This document shows, one piece after another, positions 10,201-62,300 of a stretch of DNA of 64,000 bases. The first letter of the stretch is position 1; every line of letters begins with the position of its first letter. The translations under genes were made by a program, and so were the position numbers. The notes beneath the pieces were generated by a model. The model saw nothing but the letters and a program-made list of their open reading frames with translations. It had not been told where the DNA came from and did no database searches. The stretch comes from Protonemura montana (Eukaryota > Arthropoda > Insecta > Plecoptera > Nemouridae): NCBI GenBank assembly GCA_947568835.1, contig OX387604.1:8215860-8279859 (forward strand), in the 5' to 3' direction.

Positions 10201-13200
10201 CATTCACAGCCATTTGAAGCAACCATGGACATATTCTTCCTTTCAAACCTTTTTTTTTTATTTGGATTCAAATTTCGTAGTCTTAACGCACGAAAATACA
10301 CAAAAATGTCGTGTAGCCAAGTCATCAGAAAGCTATTCGCACGAAAATCTCAATCTGGATGAGCTGTGATTGGACTCATTTGATTCACACACGTCACACC
10401 ACTTTCTTATTTTAACTGCAGAGATCAATTATTTGAACGCATCTTGCACCTGACACAGCTTCCCAAAGACTGAACAAATACAACTCGCACAACCACACAC
10501 TGGCCACTAGGGTTGTAGCTAGCAAACTGGCTGGGTTATGGCGATTCACTTGCGTACACGCATTGTTTTGTTATTGCACCGAGTAGCGGTGTTCCACGAA
10601 AAATTGTGTTACTTTGAAGCAGTGGTTAATTTCTACCAAAACAGGTGGCCCTCGTAAATACTAAAATATATTTATATATTACTAGAAACAATCCACGCAA
10701 GTCAAAACCTAGTGTGTCTTTGTTCCATACTGTCGCGTTACTTTGTCGGCGCGATAAGCGAGTCGTCGGTAGGAGCGCTATCGATATTCAAGAGAATCTA
10801 CGAAAACGCTGTTAGCCAAGCTAACGTTACAGGTTACAGCTCTCGCAGGTTATTTTTTCTGCAAAAATTTTGAAAGATTGATCTCTTACCGATGTAAACC
10901 CTAGAAAATATTTATTTTTGTTGAGCCCGGCTGCGCAATGAGACGCCTGTCTAGTACATGACAATTTTCGTGCGAGTAGCTTTCTGACGACTTCGGTACA
11001 CGAAAATTTACGAAAATTTCGTGCGGATAGGTCGGCCTTCGATTTTAATCTGTCCGCGATTGCCTGTGCAGGCATGGGCGTTATAAAATCAAATTCGTTC
11101 GTTTTGAGTGAATTGCGAATTGCGATAGTCATCTTTATAAGACTTTTTTTTTTTTGGGCAAGATTATACGAGTTGGAACACACATATTGTCATTTTACGA
11201 GTCATGCATAGGAGATTACTTTTTCTTATTCACTAAAATTGACCATCCCCTTAGGATGCAATTCTTTAAAATTTGATACCGCACTGAAAATTAGTCTCAC
11301 TCTTCGATTCAAAATTGCCAGGCAATCAGTCTCGGGCGTACGTAGGATTAGAATCTTTTTTATTTTCTTATCGTAATTTACCACCAATACACGCCACATT
11401 TAATTGTGGTGGTGAATTGCAATGTCAAGAATAAGTCTGTGTATTCCTCTATTCGTACTGACACCAGCTTGCTCTATTTGCCCGACCTGTGAATGTGCAT
11501 TATTTTTTCGCGGTGCCAAACCAAGAAGTGGATTTAACACATTTACTTGAGTCTGCATCCAATTTATTTTTCCCTTGATGTGCCCCGCCGGCCTCTTCCC
11601 CTCCACCCACTCAACTTTTGACGACCTGTCAGGCTCCAGGGGCTAAGGCATCGCACCCTAGTTAGCATCAGTAATCTGCATCGCCGGCATACCTAAAACC
11701 AACACTCGTTACCTCTTCAAACTAAAACAACGGTCAAGTAAATGCACCGAGCTTCCAAGCAATACTTGTATCTTCATGCTGCTTACAAAAGATCACGGCA
11801 TTCCCTAGGTATTCTGCACTGGAGTCTAGACGGAATGCTATTTAAATCTGCCAAGATGATGTTGAAAGAAAGTGCCGATTGGCATAGCCGTTTCCCATGT
11901 ATCGGTCAGTTCACACAGCCTGCGAAGCAAACAAGCCATGAATACACACACACTGACAATATCCAGTCTCCATATTATGAATTCAAGTCTTCGTGATTTT
12001 CATAGATTACATATTCACGTAGCTGGGATGTTAAAGTGGTCCACCTGCTGAGACTGAGGTAAAGTAGAAGTGGCTAGGGCAGCATCCTCCCAAGACCTAC
12101 ATGTCCTCGGGGCCCTCGCTGCCCCCTGCTCCTAACCCCACTCTACCTCTGCCATCCTTAGAGGCTGCCATCGCAGGAGAACCGAGGCATGAGCCAGCCT
12201 ACCTGATTACCGTGCTGATTTACAATATAACCATGTCATGCTGACAACCTGCTCAATTTTAACCAGCATCAAAATAATACAAGCCGGATTTAATAAGATA
12301 CACATGACTCCTCCTCCTGTTAAGCAAACAGCTTTGATTGTTTAGTTCGATGGTGTTGAACCTCCTACCGTGGCGAACCTATAGCTGGTAACTTTGTCGG
12401 ATACCTGGTGTAGCCGTTCTGCCTAGGATCTTTCCATGTTAAGACAATTCGATGGGAGTTCCTCAATTATCGGCTATTTCTTTGGAGTGTACTTACTGCC
12501 AGAGATTTTATGATCTTCAGTTTTGTACCTCCCTATACAAAATCTTTAAAATGTGAGCCAGTGTTTTATTTTACACCTGTTAATGTGTTGGGATTGTTAA
12601 TTGTTTTGTTGGTGGCATTTGGTAATTGAATCGACTTGTTCGATAGATTGGTCGCAAGTTCCAGTTTCTAGCTACCCCAACGGCCAGGGCCAGGCTGGAT
12701 CCGATTGGCCTTATGCGCTGTATATAATATGGGCACGCAACAGATGTGACTTGCATCTAAAATATGTGTTGGTGCAGCAGGCAATGTGGGGTTGCACCTA
12801 ATTAATAACATAATGTCTTTCCGTAATCCGCGACAATCTCCTGGCGATTTAGTACAAGTACCAGGGAGCAGAAAACCTGGCGTGACCAATCGCGTTTGAG
12901 GAACGCTTAATTAAGACAATGTCCTAATTTTTAATCTGTAAAGCTCATTACAATGAGCACAACAGATTCCAAGATGATAATTGTCCTTGCCTCTGTCTTA
13001 TTAGATGACTGAAATTCCTGATAGGTGCGCTATACGATAAACACGCTTGATCGTGTGAAAATCGTTAGCCGAGACTACTTTCTTATGAATCTTCACAGGC
13101 AGACCGCATTTCATATGCAGGTGAATCCGATACTGATACGGAATAAGTATCGAGACCCTACTATCGGTGCCAATGGCGCAGCTTGCATTTAGTTGAAATC

Positions 13201-16200: not shown

Positions 16201-19200
16201 TTGTATTGGACCGATGGCCGGCTCAAGTTCATCGAAGCCGTTGACTATGAAGGCCGAAATCGAAAACCCATTGTCAATACGGGTGTCGAGTACCCTTTTG
16301 CCATATCGATGTTTCAAGTAAGTGACAGTCAAGACAAATGAAGTATGCACATTGGAGCAAGTTCAAAAAAAAAAATCTAATCAATGTGTGCCTATTTGGT
16401 GGTCTATGCTTGGTAACGGTTTGCCGTTTTAATATATTTTTATTGTCTGTAATACAACCATATCTACATATATCTGCCTTCACCCATGGCGTTACCAGCC
16501 AGCTAATTCATGGCATAGAGAGTAACAAGTCACATAATGCACCAACATAAAAATAGGCAAACCAATCTAATTAATCAGCATATGTTTTTAATTAAATACC
16601 TACCCTGATACCCAGGGGTTAATTTAAGAAATTGAAGAAATTATATCACATTCTGAAACCGCTCAACCCCATTCTATGATAATCAATTAATGGTCACAAA
16701 TCCTTCAATTCCATTATACAACTCAAAATGCATATTATATTACTTGTTTTAAAAAAAGACCGAAATGGTGCTCCATTGCTTTCTAGTGACCTCTGCCAGG
16801 TGGTGACATTCTATTAATGTCTGTTTGTACCACCCCAACAGAACAAACTGTACTGGACTGATTGGAAGACATGGGCGATCCACGAATTCGACCGTTCGGA
16901 ATCAAAGCCGCAATCAAGGAAGCTGATTACCGGTCATGTGGTGCCGATGGACATCCAGGTTTGGGATGAGGGGCGTCAGCCTAAAGGGGACACTGCATGC
17001 CGGCGCAACAACGGCGGATGCTCTCACTTGTGTCTGCTGGCGCCTTACTCTCCCGGATACACCTGCGCCTGTCCCACCGGCGTAAAACTTATCGACAACA
17101 CCACTTGCGCTGATGGTACGAATCGCCGAGGTGGCCAGTCGTAGACAGGAATTTACATTTTATAGATTGGTTTGGAAGGCTAATAAGGGTTATATGGTGA
17201 CTAATAATATACAAGACTGATGGTATTCTTGCTATGCTAGTAAAAGGACTGTTAAAAAGCACTGGTGGCTAGGAAGTTATATTTTATATTTTTAGCTTTT
17301 ATGAGAAGTAAGATTTTGTATGCTCTAAGGTGCCTATTGTTGTAAGGCTTACTTACAAACTAAATACTTACAAACTTAACAGATGTAGCAGATTCAGCTT
17401 AACGTTTCTAATGTTAAACTATGCTACTGTTAACGTGCTACGAAGTTGTGCCGCCATACTCTCGTAACGCTAATCTATTCAGTGTTTACCAGCGGACAAC
17501 TTTAAACTAGTGGCTAGTAACACTTGCCTATCTTCCAGCTTGCATATCCCATCAGATAAAATGGTGCACTTATTTTAAAACAACAAGAGATGACCAGAAA
17601 ATTCCTTGCCTCGAAAAATAATTTCACATAAGAAAAACTATTTGAACTGGGTTTTGAATTCTAAGTAAAGGGCTACTAAATTTCCAGACGTTTCGCAACA
17701 TATACTAGTTACTTCTTCAGAGGTTTGAGCAGTCCTGACAATTTTCCAATAACAAAAGAACCACATAAAATTATAACAATTACCTAGTTCAAGCATCCTA
17801 AATGCATCTAAACAAAATAATCCGGGTCAATAACTTAAAAACTAATGTATTATGTATTTTCTGAAATAAGATCTCGAACACAATGGCGTTTTTTAACTAA
17901 CTAATTATGTGTATGGAAAAAACGCCAATTTTTCGATATAATATAATTTTCGATAATCACATAACGTTAGGGCAACCTCGAAAAATTGGCGGTTTTTCCA
18001 TACACATAATTAGTTAGTTATAAAACGCCAATATGTTCGAGATCTTATTTCAGAAAATACATAATACATTAGTTTTTAAGTTATTGACCCTGATTATTTT
18101 GTTTAGATGCATTTAGGATGCTTGAACTAGGTAATTGTTATAATTTTATGTGGTTCTGTTATCGGAAAATTGTCAGGACTGCTCAAACCTCTGAAGAAGT
18201 AACTAGTATATGTTGCGAAACGTCAGGAAATTTAGTAGCCCTTTACTTAGCATTCAAAACCCAGTTCAAAGAGTTTTTCTTAAAACTAGTGCTAAGGATA
18301 AATCAAGTAGACATGAGTCTAAAAACCATAATAATTTCACTCTTTTTAATAAATTAAACTCGTCTTCATTCAGGCGCCCAAGAGTTACTGCTGCTCGTCC
18401 AACGCACGAACATCTGCAAAATATCGCTCGACTCTCCCGACTACACCAACTTTGTGCTGCCGCTCAAGGACATAATGCACGCAATTGCGATAGACTACGA
18501 CCCTGTTGACAAGTACGTCTACTTCACGGACGAGGAAGCACGAGCATTGCGGCGTGCGAGACTGGACGGCTCGGAACAGGAGGACCTGATCACCACTGAA
18601 GTAAAGCATCCTGACGGCATCGTCGTTGACTGGCTCGCTCGCAATCTCTACTGGACCGATGCTGGCACGAATCGAATAGAAGTCGCGAGACTTACTGGAG
18701 CGTCAAGGAAAGTGCTCATCAACAAGGTGATTTGATTGATTAATTTACAAAAAAAGATTGCCAAATGGATAGTTTGTATGGGCACTTCATTAATTGTACA
18801 TTTTCTTCTGCGACCAATGCAAAAAAGGAAAACGTTGACATACAGTATTTTTATGTAGATATTTATGATTTATTTATTTTGTAGTATTCCTAAGCATACT
18901 GATTCTTCATATTGGCTCTCTCATTAATTGGTTCTTTATTCACATCTTAAATAAATCGTCATTTGAGCCATAGCTCCTTTTAAACTTGGTTTTAATTCAA
19001 AACCATTGAACAAGATCGCTTTACAAGAATCAGCCTATCCTATCTTGAAACTCTTATTTCTGGTGCTGAATCTAGTGATTAGTAGGTGAAATCCTAGAAT
19101 ATTTTTTCTGGGTAAGTAGAGTAAAAGAAACCATATTTTGGACATTTATGGAAATTAACTCTGCGGCTGTAACAAAAATCAACTGTTCGACATTAAAACT

Positions 19201-54332: not shown

Positions 54333-55375
54333 CGTGTATTTGACAGGATTGCAATCCATCCTCCGTGTCTTTGACAGAATTGTAACCCACCCATGTCTAA
54401 CACAAGATTGCAGTCCACTCCTTGCCTTCGACACCAATGCAGTCCACTCCTTGCCTTCGACACCAATGCAGTCCACTCCTTGCCTTCGACAGCATTGCAG
54501 TCCACTCCTTGCCTTCGACACTAATGCAGCCCACTCCTTGCCTTCGACACCAATGCAGTCCACTCCTTGCCTTCGACAGCATTGCAGCCCACTCCTTGCC
54601 TTCGACACTAATGCAGCCCACTCCTTGCCTTCGACACTAATGCAGCCCACTCCTTGCCTTCGACACTAATGCAGCCCACTCCTTGCCTTCGACACCAATG
54701 CAGTCCACTCCTTGCCTTCGACAGCATTGCAGTCCACTCCTTGCCTTCGACACTAATGCAGCCCACTCCTTGCCTTCGACACTAATGCAGCCCACTCCTT
54801 GCCTTCGACACTAATGCAGCCCACTCCTTGCCTTCGACAGCATTGCAGCCCACTCCTTGCCTTCGATACTAATGCAGTCCACTCCTTGCCTTCGACACCA
54901 ATGCAGCCCACTCCTTACCTTCGACACTAATGCAGTCCACTCCTTGCCTTCGACACTAATGCAGTCCACTCCTTGCCTTCGACACCAATGCAGTCCACTC
55001 CTTGCCTTCGACACTAATGCAGTCCACTCCTTGCCTTCGACACTAATGCAGCCCACTCCTTGCCTTCGACACTAATGCAGCCCACTCCTTGCCTTCGACA
55101 GCATTGCAGTCCACTCCTTGTTCTTCAATCATTGCAAACCTTTCCAGGTATTTGACGCCATTGCAATCTTCTCTGTGTCTTTCACTGGATTGCAATCCAT
55201 TCCTTGTCTTTGACAGCATTGCAATCCACTCCTTGTCTTCGACAGCATTGCAATCCACTCCTTGTATTTGACAGCATTGCAATACACTCCTTGTCTTAGA
55301 CACCATTGCAATCCACTCCTTGTCTTTGAAAGCACTGTATTCCACTTCTTGCCTTCGACACATTGCAATCTACCC
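54333..55375. repeat. 29-bp minisatellite array, about 36 units
   Basis: The unit is CTCCTTGCCTTCGACACCAATGCAGTCCA-like (29 bp), with variants ACACCAAT, ACACTAAT and ACAGCATT, and GCAGTCC or GCAGCCC. The core (about 54411-55110) is nearly uniform and both edges are diverged. Because 29 is not a multiple of three, several frames are open on both strands. These ORFs are not genes. Confidence 0.97.
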
Positions 55376-59399: not shown

Positions 59400-62300
59400 T
59401 ATTTTGTCTCAAAAGTCTATCTAGGAAATGTACGTTTCTCAGCGGCGTTCACGGTGAATAGTAAAGAGGAATTCGACACGGCAGTTGCGCAATCTTACCG
59501 TTTCTTCCCTGTTTTGGGATAATTGTTGGCTCACCTCCGATCCACCACCTTGCCTTGATTACCTTGCCTAGATTGCCTTGCCTTGGTTGGCATCTTTCAC
59601 AAGGAACAACTGATCGAACTCAAGGAGTCAAGGCGCTCAACTGAACGGCTTGTGGTGGTAGCAGTTCACACGCTAAAGATATGTCAAATAAATATTTATA
59701 TAAATTTCCATGTCGCAAATGTCATCCTAGCACGTATACTCTGTGAATTTTACGGGTTAGGTACTGTTGATGTTAAACGGGGTAATCGAATAATGTATGA
59801 TTAAGGCCGTGGGCTTCATTAACTCCATAACTTTCCAAAGCTAAAACGACAAAAAACGATACTATCATTTGGCGCTACGAGTACGTTCCTTAGCTGTCAT
59901 TTCTCAGTGATTCTATTTTGGCAAATTGTGTGTCGTAGAACTTGTTGCTTGAAACTTAACACAACATGTATTCGTTCGTTGCTATATTTAATGGAACTGA
60001 TCGGCGACAGTATGTGTCGCATTCTTCCGAATTCGGTTGGTAAGAAGGGGGGGGGGGGGGGGGGGGTCGATAGATCTGTCGCCTTCGCTGTTAATTGTTG
60101 TTATTCGAATATTGGTCGATTGCTGTTCGAACCAATGCATCCTCACATGCATTTACCACTCACAGTTCAACTGATTCCTCGTGCCCATATATACTAAATG
60201 TTTTTTTCAATGAAAATTCATCTTTATTTTGGCGTAATATACAGCGATTTTAACAGAAAATGTGTCAATGTTTTGAAATCGCCTCCTTGTGAATGTGTTT
60301 CAATGTTAATTTCTTCAATGTCAGTGAATAAAACACTAGTATAGGTAATAAGAAATGATAAACCTAACAAAAATATTCACGATATTATAATTACTTATAA
60401 TAATAGTAACTACGTTCCTCATGCAGCCGCAACCAGCTGCACAATTCATAACTAATTTATTTAACTTGGTATGATTTTATAAGATAATTGCTTTGCTCTT
60501 ATTCTGGACCATTCAAATAGACTGGCGAGACACTACTTTAAAGTTTCTAACGAAGCTAGTATCCAAGAAAATAATGGAAGTATAACATTCGTAATCGCAT
60601 AATTTATTATTACCTTTACCTGTTCATTTCAAAGAGGAACACTTTTTCGGTTTTTTGTCGTCCGTCTGACATTTTTTTTTTTTTTTTTTTTAATTCATGA
60701 AGTTGGCATGAGGGTTATTATACTATTATTACTCTAGTGCTCAATCACACTGGTTTCAGTGTCCAAAAAACGAGTCATTGTCTCATTCATTTTCGCATCA
60801 ATGTTCCGATGGTTACTAACCAATCCACGATTCGTCCGAATATTGCCACGTTTATATTCGTATGCTATATCTGTTCGGTGTCGGTAACTGCCAATGAGGA
60901 TTTTACTCCGATTATAGTCACACCGATCCAAATGAGCCAACGCGATGCGATAGTGCCTGAAGACCTGCGTTTGACTCTCATTCACATAAGGACACATTCA
61001 CAAAATTCTGAAATTCCTGATCGATGTTTGTTAGCAGCAGCCAGGCCAGCAGCAATGCTATCCAAAGGATTTCATGTACAAAAGAAACAGACAAATCTTA
61101 CGATGTATTCAAGAGTAAGAAAACATGCTTATCTATTTATTCTCGATTCGATTTTTAAAGAAATATTCATACACACAATCACTTTGATGAATATTAGTTA
61201 TTATTCTATGTGTTACTGTGTTAAAAGTGTCGAACTATTTAGCAATGTGGTTGTTTTTCTATGGACCATGTTTTAATTGTTGATCAATAACTGTTCGTAA
61301 TATGGTACTTTTTAAGAATACCGGTATCCAGTATCTACTGAGTCGGTACCTCTAGGAGAAGATTTGACAGAAATTAAGGAATAATGCAAAATAATCTCCT
61401 CCAGATTCGAAAAAGCTTGACCTGGACTGGAGCGGTATTTTTTTTTTTTTAATTCAGTTTCAAAATTCAATCATTCAACTACTAAATGATCACATTGCCC
61501 TCAACTGTTCGCTTTTAACCAAGTAACTAACAGAGCTTACGATTGTCTAAGAGAATCATGGCACTTAACAGTATTATCTAGTCGTCAATTCTTATTTTTT
61601 GAGTACATGTCCAAACGAACGCATAACCAAGGTTAAAAAAATATATCGAATGTTGAATTGATCATATTGTGTATGATATTTTCGTGTACATAGGTAGCAG
61701 CGCGCACTAATCTGCGGCTATATGTTAATAATAATGCATCAAACTGTTATTGTTGCAAGTTAAACAGTCGTCAGCAGTTCGATGATTAAATGCAGCTCTG
61801 TACATTTTTGTTTTGTACATAGTTCATTAAAATATGTCCAACTATCTGTAATAAAAACAGAGACCAACAGTAATCAAGTGTTTTGATTTTTTTGTTTTTA
61901 ACAAGTAGTCTATTCCTAAAATATCTTTGCTCTGTAGCCCGTCTATCCTTTTAGATCCTCGCGGAGAAGGCGAGTGTGTGAGAGAGATGGGGAACTGCTT
62001 TTTACGGCCACCGGAAACGCCAGTTAAAATCCGATCTGCGTTCTCGGAGCGTAAACCATTGACTTCCATATGAAAGTCTATTCATACTCCCTCCTGTATC
62101 CTGTGTTGAAAACTACCCACTTCCTAGCTAGAAGAGATAAGGGCATTCAGAATGTTTTATCTGTGACTTCAGATAACAAAATTCGCCGACTATTCGCATG
62201 ACGCTTGAAGAAAACTGGGCAAATGAGGGTAAAAGACTATTACTTCCAGGCAGTTCCTGTGAATTGGGACGCGATAATCGGTTTGTAGGAGATGATAATT

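Follow-up and report, generated by a model that had tools for sequence, protein, structure and literature searches.

The window, by which we mean the whole 64-kb stretch of DNA analysed here, carries a gene of the LRP5/6 type, in which we found Ldl_recept_b, EGF-like and Ldl_recept_a domains and whose structure matches were LRP2, LRP4 and LRP6 (LRP6 over one 749-residue stretch). As these are the domains and matches that arrow should have, they bear out the first-pass annotation (a reading of this DNA from the sequence alone), which had placed a foldback in an intron of arrow. The host intron measures 1,258 bp (17116..18373, forward strand; limits inferred from GT/AG and the reading frame). 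On the same basis the next exon starts at 18374, i.e., 91 nt past the last base of the foldback at 18282, which is the spacing originally proposed.

The foldback consists of two arms (17629-17936 and 17978-18282) that differ at 9 positions and by one 3-nt gap over the 308 columns of an arm-versus-arm alignment. An inverted-repeat search recovered it as two abutting repeats (17754-17936/17978-18160, 183 nt, 97% identity; 17629-17757/18154-18282, 129 nt, 96%) with the inner arm ends 41 nt apart, so that both the near-identical arms at 17629-18282 and the 41-bp loop described in the first-pass annotation were recovered. With the search set to repeats of at least 40 nt and a seed of 14 nt, nothing comparable was found elsewhere in the 64-kb window. 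The sole other inverted repeat at that length is an imperfect 40-nt palindrome (70%; 55160-55225). Predicted folding of the RNA from 17619 to 18340 gave -474.5 kcal/mol, whereas 20 shuffled sequences averaged -129.6 (sd 6.2; z = -55.7).

Limits and identity of the insertion

Comparison of the flanks showed that the insertion is larger than the hairpin. It spans 702 bp (17628-18329), including a 49-nt extension on one side only, and it is bounded by an 11-bp target-site duplication, AATAATTTCAC, at 17617-17627 on the left and 18330-18340 on the right. The element thus runs on to 18329 and does not end at 18282, as had been thought. The view that its ends are not those of a standard MITE stands; the view that it has no clear target duplication does not, and the duplication was overlooked because one end of the insertion outreaches the hairpin by the 49-nt extension.

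From left to right, the insertion begins with an inverted block of pseudo-LTR (the 5' arm, 17628..17936, reverse strand), which maps, reversed, to about -1 to -305 of a full-length relative, L009 (positions are counted from the end of the pseudo-LTR); the first 2-3 nt of this block at 17628 may be target or priming residue. There follows a direct block, whose unpaired start is the 41-nt 'loop' (17937..17977, forward strand), reaching up to about -346 and adjoining the ORF stop of L009, and whose remainder is the direct pseudo-LTR (the 3' arm, 17978..18280, forward strand, sense relative to arrow). A single nucleotide is left over at the junction of the two blocks. The one-sided tail (18281..18329, forward strand) corresponds to the beginning of the element's ORF in full-length relatives, ATG included (18313-18315).

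These full-length relatives identify the family as that of a Penelope-like element (PLE). L009 and L008 contain ORFs of 856 and 696 aa that match the Pfam reverse transcriptase (RT) domain RVT_1 with E-values of 2.8e-13 and 7.8e-13, respectively, and the PDB sequence matches that L009 gave at E <= 1, 10 in all, were without exception reverse transcriptases (best E 0.00065). A PLE should also encode a GIY-YIG endonuclease. The C-terminal 168 aa of L009 gave no Pfam match to a GIY-YIG endonuclease even at E 5; by eye, they contain a GVY...VYIG stretch, which we take to fit the GIY-YIG motif. In this one full copy, an inverted pseudo-LTR stands in front, followed in direct order by pseudo-LTR, ORF and pseudo-LTR. 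The layout described as typical of Penelope elements likewise combines direct pseudo-LTRs around an ORF with an inverted pseudo-LTR (PMC3846280). The window copy keeps the repeat and tail only, its direct block extending to about -346 and its inverted block to -305, and it has no ORF, as was expected of a foldback said to lack coding content; its kinship is therefore traced via pseudo-LTR and tail, with no encoded protein.

We are confident that what lies in the arrow intron, in sense orientation, is a PLE copy of 702 bp without an ORF, for whose formation we propose the two-primer route set out below. The anatomy, the kinship with RT-encoding copies, the one-sided tail, the duplication and the independent block lengths are all directly visible. 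The foldback is hence best read as a truncated Penelope-like copy from a family of thousands and as no special structure of this intron. The insertion appears to be old, because its arms diverge by 3%. Mutation rates in insects are roughly 3e-9 and, if such rates apply, its age would be, as a rough estimate, of the order of millions of generations. In itself, the window element is an ordinary representative of a known kind, and it is at the level of the family that the footprint described below is of interest.

Anatomy and proposed formation of the family copies

The first-pass annotation had suggested searching the genome for other copies and aligning their ends and flanks. We did both: many copies were found, and the flanks gave one-sided tails and target duplications. 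The searches covered the source genome (258 Mb, 34 contigs) and, at no more than 3 mismatches, returned 8,086 matches to the outer end of the pseudo-LTR and 3,743 to the tail, i.e., 2.2 ends per tail, while reversed-pattern controls for both gave 0 matches genome-wide. Where flanks were compared (copies in 20 regions of the source genome), the extra stretch was present at one end and the other end started with the edge of the pseudo-LTR, in many cases preceded by a T run.

The same asymmetry was found in 37 non-redundant, innermost inverted pairs (from L001-L087, window copy included; four loci, L009, L053, L061 and L068, are composite), all 37 of which had a tail at exactly one end; in 28 of them, by raw count, a flanking word of at least 10 bp was common to both sides. 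Another 42 ends in L001-L087 had no partner within their own locus. Among 70 tail-bearing ends (L001-L097), 42 had a target duplication of at least 10 bp (raw count; 10-17 bp, median 13) and 28 had none of that length, which at some of these 28 may be due to locus ends and decay.

When mapped on L009, each copy was found to be made of an inverted and a direct block of differing lengths. Most direct blocks were short: in a sample of 50 loci picked solely for the tail pattern (L058-L087 and L098-L117), 42 were no longer than 150 nt, and 2 extended past the ORF stop. In 5 of the 37 pairs (L004, L032, L040, L062 and L075) the inverted block exceeded the direct one by more than 40 nt (e.g., 1,269 vs. 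48), which means that in these pairs the direct cDNA cannot have been its template. Each copy has the look of two cDNAs that were truncated separately and then joined head to head.

The simplest explanation of this structure is an account with two primers, for whose enzymatic steps we have taken guidance from in vitro experiments published for an Anolis PLE. Specifically, the RT/endonuclease of the PLE would bind PLE sense RNA, both target strands would be cut about 11-13 bp apart (giving rise to the duplication), and each cut end would prime reverse transcription on the sense RNA, one primer at an outer start site (the end of the tail) and one at an inner start site (the A-run bordering the pseudo-LTR). 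Both cDNAs would stop early, either at arbitrary points or by run-off at the 5' end of the RNA, and would then be joined head to head via microhomology or short filler. The expected product is an inverted pseudo-LTR and a direct pseudo-LTR with a tail at a single end, flanked by a target duplication. For the window copy, one cDNA would have stopped at about -305 and the other at about -346, close to the ORF stop, so that the hairpin consists of pseudo-LTR only. In vitro, the Anolis PLE protein is described as cutting and extending both strands, and reverse transcription as beginning at two neighbouring internal sites, between which the tail lies (PMC11167929). That study saw no strand difference in the choice of site, whereas the copies here show one start of each kind. 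As a side observation, the filler at the block junctions of L050, L052 and L063 repeats nearby words and looks like the outcome of templated end joining.

A hammerhead-like motif and the ends of the arms

The pseudo-LTR contains, in this order, CTGAAGA, an extra A, a stem (stem II) and GAAACGTC, an arrangement that is hammerhead-like by comparison with the hammerhead consensus and whose predicted cut separates -56 from -55. In the window, the core CTGAAGA ... GAAACGTC lies in the right arm (18191..18224, forward strand; predicted cut 18224/18225), where it is complete, with the first G after the cut replaced by A, and its antisense counterpart lies in the left arm (17687-17720). Searches of Rfam at E up to 5 and 10 gave no match to a hammerhead family, the matches being sub-threshold ones to miRNA hairpins and others. 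Among 40 copies reaching -106, each core base was kept in 36-40, stem II was paired in 38-40 and lower stem I in 38-40 of the 39-40 testable copies, with three pair types at -90/-55. The core was slightly less variable than the rest of the stretch (2.8% vs. 4.2%). One position of upper stem I was unpaired in 37 of 39 copies, and one extra A precedes stem II. A T at the first core base (4/40) and an A at another core G (4/40) speak against a ribozyme. Since the 40 copies are close relatives of one another, the conservation of core and stems lends the ribozyme weak support.

The minimal form of PLE hammerheads has been described (PMC7761336), and the motif here resembles the minimal type I form in its CUGANGA ... 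GAAAC-GUC core, in having no helix III nucleotides and in its position within the pseudo-LTR; it differs in the extra A before stem II and in the lack of an Rfam hammerhead match.

A whole hammerhead-like core retained in sense in the right arm, and a very strong predicted duplex in the pre-mRNA, could together suggest that the host uses the hairpin, either as intronic double-stranded RNA controlling how arrow is edited or spliced, or as a ribozyme that cleaves itself within the intron, intronic hammerheads being known from amniotes (PMC6155905). We nevertheless consider such use very unlikely, given that thousands of similar copies exist, that the duplex would compete with ribozyme folding, and that the element does not include the splice acceptor region: it lies in sense orientation and ends 44 nt upstream of the next exon, so the branch point and pyrimidine tract are likely outside it. 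For arrow itself, the data show little more than an old retrotransposon scar.

Across the family, by contrast with neighbouring positions of the pseudo-LTR (the only controls for this cluster), arm ends accumulate at the predicted cut. In the 50 tail-chosen loci, 9 direct blocks ended in -58..-50, compared to a single one in each of the two 9-nt bins beside this interval. A larger, mixed sample (which includes 10 loci picked as short pairs, and in which BLAST ends are uncertain by a few nt) placed in this interval 15 of 72 direct and 15 of 46 inverted ends falling within -340..-20. Split by tail type, with direct and inverted ends combined, arm ends in -58..-50 numbered 19/74 for type A, 9/57 for type B and 2/7 for unclassified copies; we count the presence of the cluster in the second tail type against the ribozyme reading.

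A genome-wide pattern for foldbacks in which both arms reach -52, with an arm gap of at most 30 nt, gave 63 places, 49 of which were used (50 matches listed, two of them overlapping). Among the matches listed, 35 junctions had at least 8 nt between the arms, and 24 of their 70 arms reached the GGG ending at -55. Of these, 23 stopped there and one ran on (the 30-nt limit leaves out arms far past the site; arms a dozen nt past it are countable, and one was found). In three junctions among the matches listed, both arms stopped at the cut. The remaining 46 arms were 1-3 nt short, ending at the self-complementary AAATTT required by the pattern, as joining by microhomology at AAATTT would give.

We considered RNA structure or microhomology as the sole cause of the cluster and rejected it, reasoning that a structural block should halt the RT before the GGG, while the arms stop just after it. 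Because the motif would be functional in sense RNA only and the arms stop at its cut, both arms appear to be copies of cut sense RNA. We think it likely that in this genome the pseudo-LTR hammerhead cleaves PLE RNA in vivo, that the cleaved sense RNA templates both cDNAs of many insertions, and that the short foldbacks are the footprints of this, i.e., fresh by-products of a parent element, each composed of one outer-start and one inner-start cDNA. Against this, the study of the Anolis PLE found that the hammerhead was dispensable in vitro and that no reads lay at the cut (PMC11167929). In the titles and abstract openings that we surveyed, a survey in which subscription literature was scarcely covered, we found no report of arm ends at a hammerhead cut.

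Arm ends form a second cluster at about -86 to -109, close to the hammerhead-like motif on its upstream side; several of them fall on A-105. The TCAG found there resembles an insect initiator, and the cluster could be a transcription start. The window copy ends at neither cluster and thus not at the predicted cut.

The same data bear on how a hairpin might arise from a single cDNA. Copied from a sense or an antisense template, such a cDNA could fold and self-prime its own second half, and self-priming on an antisense template has indeed been proposed for inverted Penelope repeats (PMC3846280). Near-symmetric copies with a short apex, which this would produce, are common (the window copy, L038 and L066 are examples). 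If the second half were copied back along the direct cDNA, however, the tail should be copied as well, yet all 37 pairs have a single tail; such copying also does not account for the 5 of 37 pairs whose inverted block is more than 40 nt longer than the direct one, and an antisense template leaves unexplained why arms halt, in three junctions both of them, at a cut made by a ribozyme of the sense strand. Snap-back of this kind therefore seems to us highly improbable, and we retain two cDNAs with separate primers.

An origin as a MITE or Foldback-type DNA transposon mobilised by a transposase would fit the hairpin shape, the thousands of short copies and the TA flanking the arm ends of the window copy. 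We considered the arms as terminal repeats with TA duplications and dropped the idea when the flanks gave one-sided tails and duplications of 10-17 bp. Asymmetric ends, target duplications of 10 to 17 bp and an RT in the full-length relatives all contradict it, as does the observation that junctions are individual and do not represent one deletion form (the 35 longer junctions sampled were all distinct strings), leaving this origin with almost no probability. An assembly artefact is unlikely, and we give virtually no credence to this or to a local inverted duplication in place of an insertion, because the arms differ at 9 positions and by a 3-nt gap, an intact 11-bp duplication bounds the insertion, and independent copies elsewhere share the same design.

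Relation to known elements

The closest parallels to the truncated PLE copies described here are Pen2a_Av of Adineta vaga (PMC3846280) and Poseidon of Anolis (PMC11167929), which, as described in the available text of both reports, share with this family an ORF for RT flanked by direct pseudo-LTRs, an additional pseudo-LTR in inverted orientation, an ORF-start tail on one side, a target duplication and a hammerhead-like motif near the pseudo-LTR/ORF junction. There are also differences. The tail is about 49 nt here, compared to 31 and 30-40 in that comparison (PMC3846280, PMC11167929), and in L009 the predicted cut precedes the start codon by 87 nt, as opposed to following it by 26 bp in the Anolis element (PMC11167929). 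Unlike Pen2a_Av and Poseidon as there described, the family here consists mostly of short copies with pseudo-LTR only, and the window copy has no ORF.

Retrozymes, too, are small, non-coding retrotransposed units with hammerhead motifs (PMC7229834, PMC4918200). They are, however, described as direct repeats that spread via circular RNA, whereas the copies here are inverted and have individual junctions (that all 37 sampled pairs are inverted reflects sampling which sought inverted pairs only). With Foldback elements and MITEs the family has in common its hairpin shape and high copy number; asymmetric ends, a variable target duplication and an RT, not a transposase, in full-length relatives set it apart. 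Caution is nonetheless needed, as PLE copies of this kind can pass for MITEs.

With about 3,700 tail places, the genome is in effect a natural insertion library for Penelope biology. It bears on the in vivo action of PLE hammerheads, called 'still a mystery' in PMC7761336, and on whether inverted arms originate from sense or antisense RNA, a question left open in the available text of PMC3846280. PLE foldbacks may also be one source of the minimal hammerhead motifs dispersed in animal genomes (PMC7761336).

Some individual members of this library stand out. In L036, about 130 bp of non-element DNA, apparently captured, lie between the arms and within a 12-bp target duplication. In L019, a larger copy harbours a mini foldback of 148 bp (575-722) that has a tail of its own and a duplication of 12 bp. 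Finally, in contig C5 of the source genome two copies of the arm are found near the contig start, at 10877-11204 and 59779-60106.
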